Assembly (NCBI GenBank): GCA_013002175.1
Contig: JABDKP010000172.1
Span: 1-41,906 of the forward strand
DNA: 41,906 bases
Origin: Ilumatobacter sp.
GTDB taxonomy: Bacteria; Actinomycetota; Acidimicrobiia; Acidimicrobiales; Ilumatobacteraceae
Direction of reading: 5' to 3'
Positions 33,194 through 41,906 of this stretch are shown in pieces. The position numbers and the translations under genes were made by a program. How positions within the stretch are numbered: the first letter of the stretch is position 1; each line of letters begins with the position of its first letter. The notes beneath the pieces are model-generated. The model ran no database searches. It worked only from the letters and a program-made list of their open reading frames with translations, and was not told where the DNA came from.

Positions 33194-34549
33194 TCACCAC
33201 TTCGTGACGAGTGCCGCCTGCAGCAGGATCGCGGTCGCAGCCTGCGCAGTGACCCAGCCGGCCGCGTGGCTGTTCCGGCCGAGGCGCACGAGGCGGAGGT
33301 CGAGCGGTGCCACGAGGGCCGCCGCCGCAATCGCCAGCCACGGATAGAAGATCAGCCAGATCCGTTCGACTTCGCCCTTCGACAGTTGCGACAGGTCGGC
33401 GACGACCAGCGCGGCCAGACCGCCCCCGACGAGCGTCCACATGGTGACGCCGCGGAGTCGCGTCAACCCCGCGAGCGTCGCCGGGCCGACGGCGATCAGC
33501 GCAGCGGCGATGTTGGCGAAGATGAAGTAGTTCCAGATGCGGAACTGGGCGGACCCCTCCCAGTACTCGACCCGCGTCAACGCCGCGCCTTCGAACCACC
33601 AGAACCCGGCCGCCCACCACCCGGTGGTCACCGCGACGGCCGCACCGACTGCCCCGAGGACCACTCGAACGGTTCCGGCCATCCTGTGGCGCCGTCCGAC
33701 GATCACGATCGTCAGCGGCACGAGGAGGAAGATCGCGCCGCCGTAGGTGAGGAACAGCAGCATTGCCAGCAGTGTCCCGCCCGCGACGCCGAATGCGAGT
33801 GCGGCTCGGCCGGAGGACCGGACCCCGAGTGCGACCAGTGCCACGCCGCAGGCGCCCACCGCCGAGAAGAACGCATCCGCCGATGTCACCATCCACAGTG
33901 CGTACGGCGCGACGACGAGGAACGGCGCCGATCGGCGGACCCAGACATGACCGGCCAGTGCCCAGACGGCGACGAGCACCGCCGCGGGCACTGCGATCGC
34001 GGAGAGCACCGAGAGCGCAGCGACCGGCCAGGCACCGCCCAACCCGACAGCGTCCAGCGCCTGGAGCAGCACGACGAAGCCGGGCGGATGACCGCGGACG
34101 TGCACGCTGTAGTCGTCGATGTTGTCGACGAACGTCCGCACGAACGTCCCCGCCGGCGGGGTGATCGCGAGGTTGGCGAGATACTCGTGTTCGTCGGCCG
34201 CGCCGAACAGAATGCCGTCACGACCGTCGGTCGCCGCGAGGAGCAGCGCAAATGCGCCGGCCCCGAGCGAGGTCGCACCGACGACGATCCGCAGCCGTGC
34301 CCGCTCGAACCAGCCGGTGACGACGCCGGCGACCGTCGCCGCGGCGATGATGCCGGCACCGACCAGCCCCCACCCGAACCGCCAGTCCCAGCCGTCTCGG
34401 AAGTTTCGCCCGACGAGCGGGGCTGCGCCGAGGAAGATCTCCGGTGCGGTGCGTTGCAGCTCGCGACCCCAGATGACGCTGACCCAGATCGCGCTCGCTG
34501 CGCCCGCCCACAGGGCGAGTACGAGCGACTGTCGGATCCGCTTCGGCAC
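33194..34549 (-). CDS. Multi-pass membrane protein, possible GT-C glycosyltransferase
   Basis: This 451-residue protein has roughly ten or more hydrophobic segments. An extracytoplasmic loop near residues 115-155 holds acidic residues and DEHEY, then DYSVHVRGHPPGF, which recalls the first loop of GT-C (mannosyl/arabinosyl-type) transferases where an acidic pair is catalytic. The C-terminal part (SKGEVERIWLIFYPWLAIAAAAL) also fits this class. The assignment is from topology and loop only. GTG start with CATCCT 7 nt upstream. Next to GT2 and epimerase genes it may use a lipid-linked sugar donor. Confidence 0.75.
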   Translation of the reverse strand: MPKRIRQSLVLALWAGAASAIWVSVIWGRELQRTAPEIFLGAAPLVGRNFRDGWDWRFGWGLVGAGIIAAATVAGVVTGWFERARLRIVVGATSLGAGAFALLLAATDGRDGILFGAADEHEYLANLAITPPAGTFVRTFVDNIDDYSVHVRGHPPGFVVLLQALDAVGLGGAWPVAALSVLSAIAVPAAVLVAVWALAGHVWVRRSAPFLVVAPYALWMVTSADAFFSAVGACGVALVALGVRSSGRAALAFGVAGGTLLAMLLFLTYGGAIFLLVPLTIVIVGRRHRMAGTVRVVLGAVGAAVAVTTGWWAAGFWWFEGAALTRVEYWEGSAQFRIWNYFIFANIAAALIAVGPATLAGLTRLRGVTMWTLVGGGLAALVVADLSQLSKGEVERIWLIFYPWLAIAAAALVAPLDLRLVRLGRNSHAAGWVTAQAATAILLQAALVTKW

Positions 34550-34556
34550 GGCCGCC

Positions 34557-34562
34557 AGGATG
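34557..34562 (-). promoter_or_regulatory. Candidate -10 element of the membrane protein gene
   Basis: CATCCT ends 7 nt before the GTG at 34549. It deviates from TANNNT at the first base. Confidence 0.35.
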
Positions 34563-34616
34563 CCAGAGCCGAGTCGGCGGCGTGGCCGGTTCAGCGCGGT
34601 GTTGTCGCAGCGTTTC

Positions 34617-35435
34617 TCAGTCGTCGGCGAACACCGGCGGCCGGCTCTCGAACCCCGACCGCACGGCCTCGGCCTGGTTCGGCGAGCCGATCTGTTCGCC
34701 GATCACCTGGCGTTCGGCAGCGAAGTGGTCCGCGGCGCCATCGGTGAAGATCCGGTTGAACAGTGCCTTGGCGCCGCGTACGGCACCGGGGCTGCGGCCC
34801 GCGATCTCCGTGGCCATCGCCATCGCGTCGTCGTACGGCGTCTCGCTGAGCCGCGTCGCGAGACCGAGCTCCATCGCCTCGGTGCCGGTGAACACGCGGG
34901 CGGTGAACGTCAGCTCCTTCGCGACGTCCGGCCGGACGAGCTTGGACAACACGAACGTGCCGGTCATGTCGGGAACCAGCCCCCAGTGCACCTCGCGCAC
35001 CGACAACTTCGTGTCCGGGTGCATGATGCGGATGTCGGCGCCGAGTGCGATCTGGATCCCGCCACCGAGCGCGTGACCGTGCACCGCCGCGATCACCGGC
35101 ACCGGGATCTCCTGCCACACCCAACAGACCTGCTGGCCGAGGTGGGTGATGCGACCGTCGGCCATCTCGCCCGGATTGCCGGACGCTCGTTCGGCGCCGT
35201 CGGACTGCCCGACGTCGGCGATCGCCTGCATCGAGGAGAAGTCGAGCCCTGCGCAGAACGACGCGCCTTCACCCGAGAGCACGACCGCCCGCAGGCCGGA
35301 CTGCTCACGGAGTTGCTCGCCTGCTTCGGCGAGCGCGAGGAACATCGCATTGTCGAGCGCGTTGCGCTTGTCGGCCCGATTCATGCGGACGTCGGCGATG
35401 CCGTCGGAGGTGGTGATGGTGACGCGATCGGACAT
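34617..35435 (-). CDS. Enoyl-CoA hydratase/isomerase family protein (crotonase)
   Basis: This 272-residue crotonase-family enzyme has the oxyanion-hole loops GASFCAGLDFSS near residue 60 and HGHALGGGIQIAL near 120. The segment VHWGLVPDMTGTFVLSKLV includes the position often holding a catalytic acid, here with Asp. Such enzymes hydrate or isomerise acyl-CoA thioesters in fatty acid or side-chain breakdown. The length is normal. The ATG at 35435 has GACAAT 6 nt upstream. No other beta-oxidation gene is adjacent, so the exact reaction is open. Confidence 0.87.
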   Translation of the reverse strand: MSDRVTITTSDGIADVRMNRADKRNALDNAMFLALAEAGEQLREQSGLRAVVLSGEGASFCAGLDFSSMQAIADVGQSDGAERASGNPGEMADGRITHLGQQVCWVWQEIPVPVIAAVHGHALGGGIQIALGADIRIMHPDTKLSVREVHWGLVPDMTGTFVLSKLVRPDVAKELTFTARVFTGTEAMELGLATRLSETPYDDAMAMATEIAGRSPGAVRGAKALFNRIFTDGAADHFAAERQVIGEQIGSPNQAEAVRSGFESRPPVFADD

Positions 35436-35441
35436 CCGGCG

Positions 35442-35447
35442 ATTGTC
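35442..35447 (-). promoter_or_regulatory. Candidate -10 element of the enoyl-CoA hydratase gene
   Basis: GACAAT ends 6 nt before the ATG at 35435. Weaker match (first base G). Confidence 0.35.
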
Positions 35448-35543
35448 GCGCCTGGCTCGTGTTCCGGACGAAGCGGCTGCCCCGGAAACGATCCGCACAA
35501 TCGATCGGTCAAGACCGCCGGAAGATCTGCCGAAGAAAGGGTC

Positions 35544-38012
35544 ATGACCGAGCAACCCGGCTTCGCGGCACCGACGCTGTCGTCACCGACGGCCTCGTCG
35601 GGCTCCCCGTCGATGCCTGCCCCCGCGCCCCCGCCGCCACCGGCTTCGATCGAGCCCGCGGTCGAGCCCCCCGCAGGGCCACTCGATCCGCCGGCGCCGC
35701 ACACCGTGCCCTCGTCGTCTGCCGCAACTCCTGCGCCGACCGTGCCACTGGTGCCCCCTGCTCAGCCCGCGGACGTGCCGCTCACCCAGACCGCGCCCAT
35801 GGCGCCGCCGTCGCCTGAGGCCGCGACCACCCTGCCGGAACCGGCGGACGTCGAGGAACGACTTCCCGTCGACGAACCGACTGCGGACGCCATCGACATC
35901 GAAACCGAGACCGGCACCGAGACCGGCACCGAGGCGGTGACCGACGCCGCGCCGGCGGATCCGATGGCACCGCTCGTCGGGCCGATCGTGTCGGATCTCC
36001 CGGCAACTCCGCCGTTGTCCGAGGCGTTCGCCCCGCCGGCCACGGCCGAGCCGGCGTCCGACGAGGCGATCGTCGTCGACCTCGCCCCTCCGGTGATGTC
36101 GGGCCCGGTCGACGTCGACCTCCCCGCCCCGGCGCCCGGGGCCGACGCTGTCGTGACCGAACAGACCGCGGTCGATCCGGCCGAAGTGGCCGAGGTCGAG
36201 ACCGTCGCTGTCCCCAGCGAACCCGTCGCGCTCGCGGTCGACGAGCCCGACCAGGACGAGCTTGCACCGTTCGACACGGCCGCCGAGATCGACGATGCGG
36301 CCGTCGAGGCCGCGACGGTCGAGATCGATCCGCCTGCGCCCGCCCCGGACGACGTCGAGATGGTTGCCGTCGACGCCGACGATGTGGTGCCGGTCGACGA
36401 CGTCGAGATGTTCGTCACGTCGGACGAGGCGATGGACGCCGTCCCGGCGCCTCCCGCCGCCGACGCCACGGACGCTCCCGCTTCGCTGCCGCCGCTGCCT
36501 GAGTCACCGACGGCGGCTCCGACGTTCGCGGCCCCCACCGCGGCGTCTCCCGACGCATCGATTGCACCGCCGTCGCCGGCGGTACCCGCCGTACTCGCCG
36601 CGCCGGATGGCGCCCCGGACGACACTGCGATGTCGTCTCCCCCGGCCCCGCCGGTCGTTGCACCGATGCGGGCGCCCGCGTCAGCCGCCGAGCAGTCGCT
36701 GTCCGCTCCGACGTCACCGTCGATTCCATCAGCGGTCGCCCCGCCGGTCCCTGCGGCCGAGCTGCTCGACGCACACGCGTCGGCCGACGAAGCCGCAGCA
36801 CCCACACTCGACGACGCCGCACCACCCACACTCGACGACGCCGCACCATCGTCACTCGACGAAGACGCGCCCGCCGTGCTCGACGACCTCGCAGTACCGT
36901 CGCTCGACGCACCGACACCGGACGCGCCCGCAGCACCGTCACTCGACGCACCACTCGTGCCCACGCTCGAGGTTCCGGCGACGCCTGCCACGATGCTGGC
37001 GCCGCCGCCGAGCGAGTGGTCGCCGCCGGCCAAGACGAGCGGCAAGCAGCGGCGCACCCCCAGCCCCGGCGTCAAGCAGATCGGCACTGCCATTCTGCTC
37101 GGTGCCCTCGGCATCGGTGGCCTCTTCGCCTCGCAACGGATGGCCGGCAATGACGGACCATCCGTCGTCCCCGCCCCGACCACCCCGGTCGACGTCGACG
37201 AGCCCGTCGAGGTTCCGGCCGCCCCCGAAGCAGAGACCGACGCCTCGTCGGGCGTCGCGATCATCGACGACACGACTGACCTGGTCGCCGAGATCAACGA
37301 CAACAGCGAGGAGCTCGAAGCACTCGAGCTGCTCGACCTCGGGACGGACACCGCGTTCGTCGCCGCACCTGACGCCGTGGTCGTCGCCGCCGACGAGATC
37401 GCCGCCGGTGCAGCATCGGTGTCCGATGCACAGAGCTACTCATTCAGTTGGTCGTATCCGGCAGGGACATCGATCACTGCCTGGATCGACGCGAGCACGG
37501 GAGACTTTCAGATGACGACAGCAGCGAATCATGTCCTCCGCAGCGTGGACGGGCTCTTGTACGAGCAAGCCGCTCCCGGCGGGCAGTGGTCGCTGTCGCC
37601 CCTCCAGGAGTTCGCGGACCGCGCATTCGTCGGACGCGACCAGTTGATCACCACGCCGTCGATGCTTCCCGACGAGATGCTCGCCTTCGCAACACTGAGC
37701 GAGATCGGCGAAGACGGCTTCGGTACCTACCTGATCGACGATGTCGCATTCCACCGCGACAACCCGCAACTTCGCGCCGATTGGCTGACGATCTGGGGCT
37801 TCGACTCCAGTGTGGTCGCCGCCGAGTCGCCGGATCACGGCGGCGTGCTGCCGGATGCGGCCGCACCCGGTCAGATCCTCGTGCACACCGAGGGCGGGCT
37901 CGACTCCGTCGTCACGACCGCAACGGTGTCCACGTCGGACGGCACGTCGACGTACGTGCTGCTGGAGGCGTCCCGCGACGAACGGGCGATCGCCGTCCCC
38001 GACGTCGGCTGA
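35544..38012 (+). CDS. Large Pro/Ala/Asp-rich single-pass membrane protein
   Basis: I do not recognise this 822-residue protein. Residues 1 to about 505 are low-complexity, rich in Pro, Ala, Asp, Glu and Ser/Thr and strongly acidic, with degenerate repeats (TLDDAAPP, SLDAP). A short basic patch (KTSGKQRR) is followed by one membrane helix near residues 513-530. The remaining 290 residues should be outside the cell. Their DAQSYSFSWSYPAG...WIDASTG pattern loosely recalls lipid-binding LppX/LprG-type half-barrels; this is a guess. The ATG has a purine-rich AAGAAAGGG close upstream and probably a CACAAT promoter about 40 nt before it, unlike the leaderless neighbours. Likely a cell-envelope protein. 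Confidence 0.8.
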   Translation: MTEQPGFAAPTLSSPTASSGSPSMPAPAPPPPPASIEPAVEPPAGPLDPPAPHTVPSSSAATPAPTVPLVPPAQPADVPLTQTAPMAPPSPEAATTLPEPADVEERLPVDEPTADAIDIETETGTETGTEAVTDAAPADPMAPLVGPIVSDLPATPPLSEAFAPPATAEPASDEAIVVDLAPPVMSGPVDVDLPAPAPGADAVVTEQTAVDPAEVAEVETVAVPSEPVALAVDEPDQDELAPFDTAAEIDDAAVEAATVEIDPPAPAPDDVEMVAVDADDVVPVDDVEMFVTSDEAMDAVPAPPAADATDAPASLPPLPESPTAAPTFAAPTAASPDASIAPPSPAVPAVLAAPDGAPDDTAMSSPPAPPVVAPMRAPASAAEQSLSAPTSPSIPSAVAPPVPAAELLDAHASADEAAAPTLDDAAPPTLDDAAPSSLDEDAPAVLDDLAVPSLDAPTPDAPAAPSLDAPLVPTLEVPATPATMLAPPPSEWSPPAKTSGKQRRTPSPGVKQIGTAILLGALGIGGLFASQRMAGNDGPSVVPAPTTPVDVDEPVEVPAAPEAETDASSGVAIIDDTTDLVAEINDNSEELEALELLDLGTDTAFVAAPDAVVVAADEIAAGAASVSDAQSYSFSWSYPAGTSITAWIDASTGDFQMTTAANHVLRSVDGLLYEQAAPGGQWSLSPLQEFADRAFVGRDQLITTPSMLPDEMLAFATLSEIGEDGFGTYLIDDVAFHRDNPQLRADWLTIWGFDSSVVAAESPDHGGVLPDAAAPGQILVHTEGGLDSVVTTATVSTSDGTSTYVLLEASRDERAIAVPDVG
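35904..35933 (+). repeat. 12-nt tandem repeat coding TETG
   Basis: The unit accgagaccggc occurs two and a half times in a row within the Pro-rich protein gene. Confidence 0.6.
36801..36848 (+). repeat. 24-nt perfect tandem repeat (two units) plus degenerate copies
   Basis: Two identical 24-nt units (36801-36824 and 36825-36848) encode PTLDDAAP. Similar but diverged units follow up to about 36965, encoding SLDEDAP, VLDDLAV and SLDAP motifs. This is a sign of recent local duplication inside the disordered region. Confidence 0.75.
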
Positions 38013-38020
38013 GCACCTGG

Positions 38021-38039
38021 GCTGACCGCGTCGGTCAGC
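38021..38039. terminator. Strong convergent hairpin
   Basis: GCTGACCG (38021-38028) and CGGTCAGC (38032-38039) form a perfect 8-bp stem with a 3-nt loop. It lies between the Pro-rich protein and the oxidase and includes the oxidase stop codon. Confidence 0.5.
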
Positions 38040-39252
38040 GCTTCCACTGGACGAGACCACGTTCGATCTCGTCGATCGTCCGGACTCCCGACAATGCCAT
38101 CGTCCGTTCCAGCCCGTCGCGCATGAACCGCAACATGTGGTCGACGCCGCGCTCGCCCGCCGCACCGAGCGCATAGAAGTACGGCCGTCCGATCGCCACG
38201 CTGTCGGCGCCGAGCGCGAGCGCCTTGACGATGTCACTTCCCCGCCGTACCCCGCCGTCGCAGATGATCGTTGCGTCCGCTCCCACCTCCTGGCGCACCG
38301 GCTCGACGAGCGAGATCGGCGTCGGCGCGTCGTCCAGCTGACGGCCACCGTGGTTGGACAGGCCGATCCCGTCGACGCCGGCCGCGACCGCCTGCTTCGC
38401 GTCGGCGACGGTCTGGATGCCCTTGAGCACGATCGGCCCGTCCCACAGCGAGCGCAACCAGTCGATGTCGTCCCACGACAGTGCCTGGTCGAATTGGCGT
38501 GCCACGTGCTCCGCCAATGAGACGGCCGTGCTGCCGTCCTCGGTGCCGCGACCGACGACGTTCGCGAACGTGATGGGCTCGCTGCGCAGGAAGTCGATCG
38601 TCCACGACGGGTGAATCGCGCCGTCGATCAACGTGCCGAGTCCGATCTTCGGTGGCAACGTCATCCCGCGGCGGACATCGCGCTCGCGCCGGCCGAGCAC
38701 CGCCGTGTCGACGGTGAGCCACAGCGCCGTGTAGCCGGCCGCCCTGGCCCGCTCGACGAGGTCCCGGACCAGCCCGCGGTCCTTCCACGTGTACACCTGG
38801 AACCACTTGTCCCCGTCACTGACCGCAGCGACCTCTTCGATCGACCGAGTGCCCATCGTCGACAGCGACCACGGCACCCCGGCGCGCGCCGCGGCTCGAG
38901 CCACGGCGAGTTCGCCCTGCGAATGAGCGATCCGGGTGAAACCGGTCGGTGCGAGGATCAGCGGCATCTCCGCGGGCCGTCCGAAGATCGAGGTCGACGT
39001 GTCGATGTTGCTGACGTCGCGCAGCACGCGGGGCCGGAACTCGATGTCGGAGAAGTCGGCCGAATTGCGCCGCAGCGTCCGCTCGTCCTCCGCACCGCCG
39101 TCGATGTAGTCGAAGACACCGAAGGGGAGGCGCCGCTTGGCGATGCGACGGTAATCCTCGACCGACGCAGCCCGCTTCAACCGTCGCTCGACCGGGTCGA
39201 GCGTGATCGAGTCGAACTGCACGACCGACCGGAACGTCTTGATCACACCCAT
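38035..39252 (-). CDS. FMN-dependent alpha-hydroxy-acid oxidase/dehydrogenase
   Basis: This 405-residue flavoenzyme is of the lactate dehydrogenase (LldD)/glycolate oxidase family. The active-site segment LSNHGGRQLD places catalytic His301, and the FMN-binding blocks LILAPTGFTRIAHSQGE, LTVDTAVLGRRERDVR and ICDGGVRRGSDIVKALALGAD are all present. Such enzymes oxidise L-2-hydroxy acids; lactate, mandelate, glycolate or a cofactor precursor (as for mycofactocin MftD) are possible, but no mycofactocin gene is in view. The ATG at 39252 has TACGCT 7 nt upstream. The length is slightly above the 350-390 residues usual. Confidence 0.9.
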   Translation of the reverse strand: MGVIKTFRSVVQFDSITLDPVERRLKRAASVEDYRRIAKRRLPFGVFDYIDGGAEDERTLRRNSADFSDIEFRPRVLRDVSNIDTSTSIFGRPAEMPLILAPTGFTRIAHSQGELAVARAAARAGVPWSLSTMGTRSIEEVAAVSDGDKWFQVYTWKDRGLVRDLVERARAAGYTALWLTVDTAVLGRRERDVRRGMTLPPKIGLGTLIDGAIHPSWTIDFLRSEPITFANVVGRGTEDGSTAVSLAEHVARQFDQALSWDDIDWLRSLWDGPIVLKGIQTVADAKQAVAAGVDGIGLSNHGGRQLDDAPTPISLVEPVRQEVGADATIICDGGVRRGSDIVKALALGADSVAIGRPYFYALGAAGERGVDHMLRFMRDGLERTMALSGVRTIDEIERGLVQWKR

Positions 39253-39273: not shown

Positions 39274-39999
39274 TCAGTCGACGAGACGGAGCCCGCTCGG
39301 TGTGGTCGACGGCTCGGCCTGCGGCAGGTCGACGACGAACTCCGTGCGATGCGCCGGGAAGAGGTGCTCGCTCACGAGGATCGGCTCGCCCCGCCGGTCG
39401 GTCGTCACCCGCTGGCAGCGCAGCAGCGGCGACCCGACGCGGATCCCGAGCAGCCGCGCATCGGCCGGCTCGGCCGAATCGGCGCCGATCGTCTGAGTCG
39501 CTCCGCGCAGCTCGATGTCGAGCAACTCGTAGAACGGCCGCGCCTCGACGTCCTGACGCGACAGCTGCGCGCCCAGATCGGACGGGCACCAGACCGTGAC
39601 GACGGCGAACGGTTCGCCGTCGGCGAAGTTGACGCGCTTGACCCGCAGCACCTGGTCGGTCCGCAGCAGCGCGCGGACGCGGGCGGGCGGTTGCTCGAAG
39701 GCGAATTCCTCGACCCGTCGCTCGGACACCTTGCCGACGCCTTCGATCTGGGCCTCGATCGTGCCGAGCGACTCGAGGCGCTGCCGCACCGGCTCGGTCG
39801 CGACGAACCATCCGAACCCCTGCCGGGCGGCGATCAACCCGTCGTCACGCACCAACTCGAGCGCGCGGCGGACCGTCACCCGCGACGCCTTGAACTCGGT
39901 CGACATCTCGGCCTCGGACGGCAGCAGCGAGCCAGCGGGCGCGGCGTCGGCACGCCGGCGCAGCTCGTCGGCGATCTCCTGGTAGCGGATCCGTCTCAC
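39274..39999 (-). CDS. GntR family transcriptional regulator with UTRA domain (HutC type)
   Basis: This 241-residue regulator has an N-terminal winged helix-turn-helix (LPSEAEMSTEFKASRVTVRRAL near residues 26-47, then DDGLIAARQGFGWFV) and a C-terminal UTRA ligand-binding domain (VLRVKRVNFADGEPFAVVTVW, PFYELLDIEL, then LVSEHLFPAHRTEFVVDL). HutC-type members usually repress and are released by a small carboxylate or sugar ligand. Its GTG overlaps the VOC gene stop as GTGA, and GGGGGAGG at 40007-40014 is a good ribosome site. Divergent aconitase is the likely target (inference). Confidence 0.9.
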   Translation of the reverse strand: MRRIRYQEIADELRRRADAAPAGSLLPSEAEMSTEFKASRVTVRRALELVRDDGLIAARQGFGWFVATEPVRQRLESLGTIEAQIEGVGKVSERRVEEFAFEQPPARVRALLRTDQVLRVKRVNFADGEPFAVVTVWCPSDLGAQLSRQDVEARPFYELLDIELRGATQTIGADSAEPADARLLGIRVGSPLLRCQRVTTDRRGEPILVSEHLFPAHRTEFVVDLPQAEPSTTPSGLRLVD

Positions 40000-40463
40000 C
40001 GCGGTGCCTCCCCCGGCGGGGTGTCGATCGTGTCCGCGTCGACGAGCTCGATCCGGTTCCCGAACGGGTCGGAGACGTGGCACCGCACGAGCCCGGGGAT
40101 CTCGGTGTTCCACGACGCGTCGAGGTTCGCCGACTCCACGAATGACACCAGTCGGCGGACGGTGATCGCGGGATGGGCCTTGCGTGCGGGCACGAACGAG
40201 TCGTCGGCGCCGACGTGCAGCCGCACGGCGCCGGCCTCGAACCATGCCCCGCCGCGGGCCGCCATCACCGGCGGCTTGGGCACCTCGGTCAGCCCGAGCA
40301 CGCCGCAGTAGAACTCCCGGGCCCGGTCCTCGGCGCCGACGGGGATCGCGAGCTGCACGTGGTCGATGCCAACCCATTCGGGCGCGCCCGACCGTTCGTC
40401 GCGTGCGGCGCCGGTGGTGGACCCCGGTCGCCCGGCGTCCGGTCGCTCGGTTGGTGACGTCAT
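39996..40463 (-). CDS. VOC family (glyoxalase-like) protein
   Basis: This 155-residue protein has a 28-residue Ser/Gly/Asp-rich tail and then one vicinal-oxygen-chelate domain: [27 protein letters not shown] (metal-binding His near residue 35), [19 protein letters not shown] and the terminal [11 protein letters not shown] with its Glu ligand. Such proteins are metal-dependent isomerases, dioxygenases or lyases, or bind drugs. It heads an operon with the GntR regulator and is divergent from aconitase across 23 bp, suggesting that it handles the ligand or a toxic by-product (inference). Confidence 0.85.
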
Positions 40464-40489
40464 GTACTTGTATTATAGTTGTCTACATG
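40461..40489. promoter_or_regulatory. Divergent promoter and probable GntR operator, VOC-GntR / aconitase
   Basis: This is the most AT-rich spot in the window. It has a minus-strand TATAAT (40472-40477) 8 nt before the VOC ATG and a plus-strand TATAGT (40474-40479) 7 nt before the aconitase ATG, overlapping by four bases. The ends carry an inverted repeat, CATGTA (40461-40466) and TACATG (40484-40489), that includes both start codons. TTGT occurs twice at 40468 and 40479, one helical turn apart. This is consistent with an operator bound by the neighbouring GntR protein. Confidence 0.55.
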
Positions 40490-41906
40490 GCCTCCGTCAG
40501 TGCAACCACCCCCATCGACCTCGTCGAGCGCGTCTACACCAGCCTTCCCGGACGGGTCGCGCTGGGGCGGGAGCGGCTCGGACGGCCCCTGACGCTGACC
40601 GAGAAGATCCTCATCAATCACCTCGTCGACCCGGACGACCAGGAGATGGAGCGCGGTTCCAGCTACGCCGACTTCAACCCCGATCGCGTGGCGATGCAGG
40701 ACGCGACCGCCCAGATGGCGCTCTTGCAGTTCATGACCGCCGGCCTGCCGGAAGCCGCCGTGCCCTCGACGGTCCACTGCGACCACCTGATCCAGGCCAA
40801 AGTCGGCGCCACGATCGACCTCGGGGTCGCGATCGACACGAACAAGGAGGTCTACGACTTCCTCAAGTCGGTGTCCGCCAAGTACGGCATCGGGTTCTGG
40901 GGACCTGGTTCGGGCATCATCCACCAGGTCGTCCTGGAGAACTACGCGTTCCCCGGCGGGATGATGATCGGCACCGACAGTCACACGCCCAACGCGGGCG
41001 GCCTCGGCATGGTCGCGATCGGCGTCGGGGGCGCGGACGCGGTCGACGTGATGACCGGCTTCCCGTTCAATGTCAAGTGGCCGAAGGTGATCGGCGTCAA
41101 GCTGACCGGGTCACTGTCGGGCTGGTCCAGCCCGAAGGACGTCATCCTCGAAGTGGCGCGACGGCTCACCGTCGAGGGCGGCACCGGCGCGATCGTGGAG
41201 TACCACGGCCCCGGCGCCGACTCGATCTCGGCGACCGGCAAGGCGACGATCTGCAACATGGGCGCCGAAATCGGGGCCACCACGTCGCACTTCCCGTACG
41301 ACCGCAACATGGCGGTGTACCTCAAGGCGACCGGCCGGGAGGCGATCGCCGATGCCGCGGACAAGGTTGCCGACGACCTGCGCGCCGACGACGGCGCGAC
41401 GTACGACCAGTTGCTGGAGATCGACCTCGACGAACTCAAGCCGCAGATCAATGGCCCCCACTCGCCCGACCGCGCCCATCTCGTCGGCGCCGCCGGCGTC
41501 GGCGCGGCTGCACGTGAGAACGACTGGCCACTCGAGCCGTCGGCGTGCCTGATCGGGTCGTGCACCAACTCCTCGTACGAGGACATCACCCGCGTCGCGT
41601 CGATCGCCCGCCAGGCCGCCGCCCGGGGGCTGACGGCCAAGTGCGAGCTGCTCATCACGCCGGGCTCCGAGCAGGTGCGTGCGACGATCGAGCGCGACGG
41701 CCTGCTCGCCGACCTCGAGGCGATCGGGGCGACGGTGCTGGCCAACGCATGCGGGCCGTGCATCGGCCAGTGGTCGCGCCCCGAGTCGATCACCGGCCGG
41801 CCGAACACGATCGTCAACTCGTTCAACCGCAACTTCCCGAAGCGCAACGACGGCTCGGCGAAGACGCTGAGCTTCGTCACGTCGCCCGACACGGTGCTCG
41901 CGATCG
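40487..41906 (+). CDS. acn: Aconitate hydratase, mitochondrial-type (3' end outside window)
   Basis: The first 473 codons of an aconitase are open to the right edge; the gene is cut there (the family is about 750 residues). Conserved blocks are [59 protein letters not shown] and IVEYHGPG. The 4Fe-4S ligands are in [10 protein letters not shown] (Cys359) and ACGPCIGQW (Cys422 and Cys425), at the same numbers plus one as in mitochondrial aconitase. It converts citrate to isocitrate in the TCA cycle. These blocks match the mitochondrial ACO2 branch rather than the AcnA/IRP branch usual in actinobacteria. The ATG at 40487 is fixed by TATAGT 7 nt upstream; it is leaderless and divergent from the VOC-GntR operon. 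Confidence 0.93.

Follow-up and report, generated by a model that had tools for sequence, protein, structure and literature searches.

A head-to-tail repeat as the predicted operator of a GntR-type regulator of aconitase and further TCA cycle genes in Acidimicrobiia

We consider it quite probable that positions 40466-40485 of the analysed window, a stretch of 41,906 nucleotides of DNA from Ilumatobacter sp., an uncultured actinobacterium, are the operator of the GntR-type regulator encoded nearby, a predicted repressor of the oxidative branch of the TCA cycle that would be relieved by citrate or aconitate. The gene neighbourhood and the operator are conserved, the operator co-occurs with the regulator, recurs before a set of further genes and overlaps promoter-like hexamers; we infer that the window GntR binds the site, that it represses and does not activate, and which ligand it responds to. 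The window is contig C87 of a source genome (G000) of 3.33 Mb in 191 contigs that is 89% complete.

On the plus strand, the mitochondrial-type aconitase gene acn (40487-41906, PF00330) has its 3' part cut by the window end, and its 473-aa fragment matches TIGR01340 best among the NCBIfam models (703.5 bits against a cut-off of 825 for the whole protein). The minus strand carries three genes. A VOC/glyoxalase-fold protein, whose closest PDB sequence is 2qqz, is encoded between the operator and gntR (39996-40463, PF00903). The gntR gene itself (39274-39999, PF00392 and PF07702) starts with GTG and overlaps the VOC stop by 4 nt, and it is followed by lldD (38035-39252, PF01070), the product of which resembles FMN-dependent L-lactate dehydrogenases, with NF008398 as best NCBIfam match (373 against a cut-off of 376). 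Further along, at 34119-38012 on the plus strand, is an open frame of 1297 aa with a Pro/Ala/Asp-rich middle, overlapped by long frames on the opposite strand; its first part may be non-coding. The nearest named relatives of the window GntR belong to the Ilumatobacteraceae of the class Acidimicrobiia, with L244 at 95% identity (among the best 80 of 269 named relatives).

Alignment of the acn/gntR regions revealed a conserved element, ACTTGT-N5-A(C/G)TTGT-(A/C)T, with a period of 11 bp and overlapping the likely -10. In the window it consists, on the plus strand, of ACTTGT at 40466-40471 and AGTTGT at 40477-40482, with a conserved tail to 40485. At least 10 of the 12 fixed bases were matched by 58 of the 59 regions, the window included, and nine by the remaining one (L087); in the shuffled control (200 shuffles per region) the best match reached at most 11 fixed bases. 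Several T and G positions are fixed in all 59 sites, and the base after the second TTGT is A or C in 58 of 59. Exact ACTTGTNNNNNASTTGTNT sites numbered 131 in 106 of the 397 order genomes, compared with 23 for a reversed control pattern (counted by hand). The direct repeat is beyond chance. We call it head-to-tail because both TT pairs face the same direction, while the self-complementarity of AC..GT also gives it a GT-N5-AC core with twofold symmetry.

Every motif described in the initial annotation was found in the window sequence at the positions claimed. The TTGT blocks said to be one helical turn apart lie at 40468-40471 and 40479-40482, spaced by 11 bp, and the proposed link of an AT-rich element with aconitase and a HutC-type GntR gene is supported, the element very likely being an operator of this GntR. 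The inverted repeat that it had described, CATGTA at 40461-40466 and TACATG at 40484-40489 (40461-40489 in all), is present and includes both ATGs. As an operator it was ruled out, since 0 of 72 distinct named sites in relatives have it, and in the window it is probably incidental, judging from this comparison. A canonical HutC palindrome was likewise rejected, as the columns past the second repeat are not conserved overall. Four loci (L083, L086, L088, and L090) have an additional half-site in inverted orientation behind the two direct copies, seen by eye as ACTTGTAT-N-ATACAAGT; this third half-site gives the palindrome-like ACTTGTATnATACAAGT, possibly a second binding mode. Tandem operators, two per promoter region and about 29-32 bp apart, occur in L051, L052, L092, and L240 (and in G357:C287).

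Two overlapping -10 hexamers on opposite strands had also been claimed, and TATAAT (40477-40472, minus) and TATAGT (40474-40479, plus) indeed have 4 bp in common. TATAGT, 7 nt 5' of the ATG, probably serves acn as its -10; 33 of the 59 order sites and 43 of the 72 distinct named sites have either TATACT or TATAGT, and upstream of the window copy only TTGGTG was seen by eye, at 17 bp. TATAAT (40472-40477) is probably the -10 for transcription towards VOC, gntR and lldD; CTGACG (40500-40495) stands 17 bp before it. A promoter scan of 40380-40600 returned this single minus-strand promoter, CTGACG-17-TATAAT, at 10/12, with a mean of 0.0 in 50 shuffles. The TATAAT has the same position as the gntR-direction -10 of the codirectional loci in other orders. 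All 20 of those loci have TAnnAT between the two repeats, and in 16 of the 20 it is preceded at 17-18 bp by a -35 of 4/6 matches or better (the best of three spacings). The start codon of gntR falls at the first repeat in most of the divergent loci, so that a minus-strand promoter using this -10 would have little space. In the window, the 7-8 nt from -10 to ATG on both sides suggest leaderless mRNAs from both sides of the operator.

Such hexamers could mean that the element is a shared bidirectional promoter alone, with two -10s overlapping by sequence symmetry and no operator. Both -10s are near consensus in the window, exact minus-strand TATAAT is found in 33 of the 72 distinct named sites, and TATAAT with an overlapping TATA(C/G)T also in 33 of 72. 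Across the order, however, the exact minus-strand TATAAT is retained in just 7 of 59 sites, and the most invariant positions include the TTGT blocks, which lie away from the centre of the -10 and are at several positions the same in 59 of 59 sites. Furthermore, of the 62 acn genes that lack an adjacent gntR, 61 also lack the element, and it recurs before further genes of one pathway. A promoter without an operator is therefore very unlikely, and we prefer to read the repeat as an operator.

The operator and the regulator gene go together. Of the 62 acn loci without an adjacent gntR, 61 had no operator score above 5.5, and the one left, G108, scored 16.8 with a degenerate site and no regulator detected; four acn genes with a missing start (G036, G037, G055, and G181) were left out of this control set. 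The scoring matrix was trained on the same 59 sites (training minimum 21.0; 99th percentile in random sequence 1.4) and later reused for the acn control, the named loci and the other orders. In L163, which is at a contig edge, and in L165 and L166, where a gntR fragment is adjacent, an operator site is present at acn. In G172 (L164), the regulator lies elsewhere with the operator before gntR, and acn has no site. The gntR relatives of G002, G149, G084, G174, and G117 showed no operator score of at least 12 within the fetched stretch, and G055 and G063 (86% and 78% complete) have tam-type sites with no gntR detected. The Fisher value for the co-occurrence, about 1e-33, comes from a table slightly off the counts in which related genomes are taken as independent, and we do not rely on it.

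The neighbourhood was followed through the order and the class. A GntR search of 198 order genomes gave matches in 101 at E<=1e-10, of which 69 genomes, counting the source genome and two fragments, hold close relatives (at least 43% identity) and the remaining matches are weak. Without the source genome and the fragments, 66 loci were fetched, and gntR adjoins acn divergently in 58 of them; an acn match is absent from the fetched stretch in eight (L061, L064, L077, L080, L092, L093, L094, and L096). The named loci are the 80 best out of 269 relatives; in 78 of them acn lies upstream of gntR in divergent orientation, in four of these with genes between, and the remaining two are at a contig end. 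All of these 80 loci have a site scoring at least 15, within 900 bp of gntR in 77 and, in three, further up at the start of acn with genes inserted between. The named loci partly overlap the 66-locus set and include genomes also listed under G handles (e.g., L299/G102), so they are not an independent sample. In other orders of the class the two genes are codirectional, gntR first and acn second, in all 20 loci examined, taken from 29 non-order genomes with matches after leaving out the fragment G555 and eight weak matches (108-127 bits). An operator-like site was present at the gntR start in all 20, and 18 of these scored at least 15; the degenerate ones are L348 (12.5) and L364 (11.0). No spread outside the class was seen in a 296-genome sample of the phylum, in which all 12 matches at E<=1e-40 fell into this order. 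The initial annotation had named unconserved gene order and motif in relatives as what would speak against its proposal; this objection falls away because neighbourhood and motif are both conserved.

The same loci do not bear out a GntR-VOC operon as a unit. VOC lies between operator and gntR in only 16 of the best 80 of 269 named loci, which rules out VOC-gntR as a conserved unit, and lldD follows gntR in 10 of these 80. From this distribution, VOC and lldD appear as lineage-specific, accessory additions. In four other loci, L035, L041, L044, and L049, a VOC gene follows acn in the same orientation (about 2.3 kb from gntR), and in G124 VOC has an operator of its own. The ties between VOC and aconitase thus take three layouts: in the gap between operator and gntR (window 39996-40463), 3' of acn, and alone under an operator (L200:2593-2964). 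As it is repeatedly linked to aconitase, the VOC protein is a candidate for aconitate handling. One could also propose that the site belongs to a different regulator and that GntR acts locally on VOC and lldD, given that VOC, gntR and lldD are tightly packed on one strand in the window. Against this, VOC and lldD occur in a minority of the named loci just counted, whereas acn and the operator are near-universal, the operator and gntR co-occur, and the operator-like site accompanies the gntR start throughout the other orders. We judge a separate regulator to be highly improbable and assign the site to GntR as its predicted operator.

Copies of the operator precede further genes. The 123 distinct exact sites were assigned to gntR+acn (80), gntR alone (2), other genes of one theme (30), and elsewhere (11); 8 of the 131 exact sites fall outside this gene assignment. 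The reference proteins were drawn from sites already found, so these counts and those of the one-mismatch search show recurrence and not discovery. The 30 were three AcnA-type aconitases, eight isocitrate dehydrogenases (five of the eukaryotic type, two monomeric, and one of the E. coli type), four genes for the 2-oxoglutarate dehydrogenase E2 (sucB), six trans-aconitate-methyltransferase-like (tam-like) genes, eight TauE permeases, and one VOC. One of the 11 unassigned sites, L242, also precedes sucB. Ten exact sites are then left without a theme gene, and in eight of them the base behind the second TTGT is G or T. A search of 10 genomes that tolerated one mismatch gave 21 sites, 20 of them at theme genes and one, L380, elsewhere. 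The window's genome has two exact sites, one at acn/gntR and the other at a distance of 46 bp from the gene for a monomeric isocitrate dehydrogenase (TIGR00178, 1259 bits against 950), and still two with one mismatch allowed, where the control pattern has one. NCBIfam cut-offs were passed by all seven proteins scanned for them (one AcnA, four isocitrate dehydrogenases, and two SucB). For the tam-like proteins, trans-aconitate methyltransferase models were the top NCBIfam match in 6 of 6, all below cut-off, and the one protein compared with solved structures had Tam (2p35) as its closest sequence. The TauE/SafE-type permease genes of L199, L202, L204, L205, L217, L230, L236, L381, L399, and L401 have the operator 0-56 bp from the start codon; the substrate of these permeases could be a tricarboxylate rather than sulfite.

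No mitochondrial-type aconitase was found in G002 at E<=1e-100; there the operator stands 77 bp ahead of AcnA, at a distance of 51 kb from gntR. The strongest argument for control of pathway function, or flux, is the sharing of one operator by different types of aconitase and of isocitrate dehydrogenase. The position of the sites bears on the direction of control. GntR might instead activate these promoters, or act on them in both ways, but the repeats overlap or bracket the -10, and the tam-like and TauE genes have their exact sites within 0-21 bp of the start codon, both of which are positions of a repressor; we hold an activating or dual role to be unlikely. For a repressor, occlusion is the simplest reading because the site sits on the -10.

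According to this repressor model, GntR (39274-39999) would sit on ACTTGT-N5-ACTTGT, bracketing or overlapping the -10s, and when bound would bar RNA polymerase from the aconitase promoter and from its own. The operator copies would put isocitrate dehydrogenase under the same control in the window's genome and, in relatives, also the 2-oxoglutarate dehydrogenase E2, the tam-like enzymes, the TauE-family permease and VOC. Accumulating citrate or (cis/trans-)aconitate would bind the UTRA domain, and the regulator would release the DNA. Release would turn on the oxidative TCA branch together with the disposal of stray trans-aconitate. An acid of the citrate/aconitate group is the likely signal, as the gene set comprises aconitase, isocitrate dehydrogenase, 2-oxoglutarate dehydrogenase E2, trans-aconitate methylation and a permease.

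The divergent gene had been annotated as a HutC-type GntR regulator, and both domains of this type score above their cut-offs, the N-terminal GntR winged helix at 43.4 bits against 27 (PF00392) and the C-terminal UTRA domain at 86.0 against 23.8 (PF07702). No other matches, and thus no membership in the MarR (TamR) or TetR (AcnR) families, were obtained in the Pfam scan. HutC proper, the histidine repressor, was rejected, as the TIGR02018 equivalog scored 101.4 against a cut-off of 220. A structure model of moderate quality (mean pLDDT 80, pTM 0.60), used for the fold only, matched DasR and YvoA. These HutC-subfamily proteins have the same domains as the window GntR and are its nearest structures. 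The initial annotation names RipA as an AraC-type aconitase regulator in actinobacteria.

DasR and YvoA (NagR) are described as serving N-acetylglucosamine use (PMC4494728), and YvoA has been solved on palindromic operator DNA according to its structure entry (4wwc), in contrast to the head-to-tail repeat in Acidimicrobiia. The usual operator of the HutC subfamily is a palindrome with GT-N4-AC, and the present site is instead ACTTGT-N5-ACTTGT, head-to-tail; the palindrome is typical of the subfamily but not defining, because published exceptions exist within it. GntR proteins reported to have direct-repeat operators include FarR and NagQ of the HutC type (PMC4494728) and NanR of the FadR type (PMC8012715). 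SdhR is described as a further HutC-subfamily regulator, with a site that is a 26-bp palindrome with added symmetry (PMC4494728); its name suggests a TCA gene, and as described there its palindromic site is unlike the head-to-tail operator. The terms 'SdhR' and 'aconit' have no occurrence in a Shewanella network paper or a Proteobacteria regulon paper. The repeats of FarR, NagQ, and NanR differ in sequence from the ACTTGT repeat, and NagQ and NanR act in other pathways. FarR is said to have once been linked to citric-acid-cycle genes in E. coli.

The closest functional counterpart is TamR of Streptomyces coelicolor, a MarR protein described as the regulator of trans-aconitate methyltransferase that represses multiple TCA genes including aconitase, with DNA binding attenuated by citrate and trans-aconitate (PMC5487221). 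The Acidimicrobiia regulator is a GntR/UTRA protein and its ligand is predicted; its putative operator copies precede tam-like, aconitase and further TCA genes. Since TamR does this kind of job in Streptomyces, the regulator probably works, by analogy, like TamR without being TamR. AcnR of Corynebacterium glutamicum, reported to bind in the stretch from -35 to -10 and so to lower the expression of aconitase (PMC9936768), belongs to another family (TetR), and in Acidimicrobiia several further TCA genes also carry the operator. TarR of Bacillus velezensis is described as responding to trans-aconitate from a divergent promoter (PMC11495376); it is presented there as a LysR activator of uptake and isomerisation genes and differs in family from GntR. 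Direct-repeat GntR operators (FarR, NagQ, NanR) and aconitase repressors (AcnR, TamR) are thus already known. At the level of titles and listings in the open-licence literature, no GntR protein was found that controls aconitase or the genes assembled here, and a control circuit of central metabolism with a GntR switch of this kind seems not to have been described previously.

A wider reading, which we put forward tentatively and think somewhat doubtful, is that GntR would be a class-wide master switch for the flux from citrate to succinyl-CoA, sensing citrate or trans-aconitate and having captured two aconitase and three isocitrate dehydrogenase types, with VOC as a new trans-aconitate enzyme. 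The operator would then be wrapped around the -10 and the regulator would have followed function rather than gene, and VOC, for example as an isomerase, would stand beside methylation and export or replace them. For a class represented in this analysis mostly by metagenome-assembled genomes, the predicted operator and its likely regulator provide a testable regulon of central metabolism. They suggest that the job of the MarR protein TamR in Streptomyces falls to a GntR protein in Acidimicrobiia, and they make the permease and VOC genes candidates for uncharacterised steps of trans-aconitate handling.
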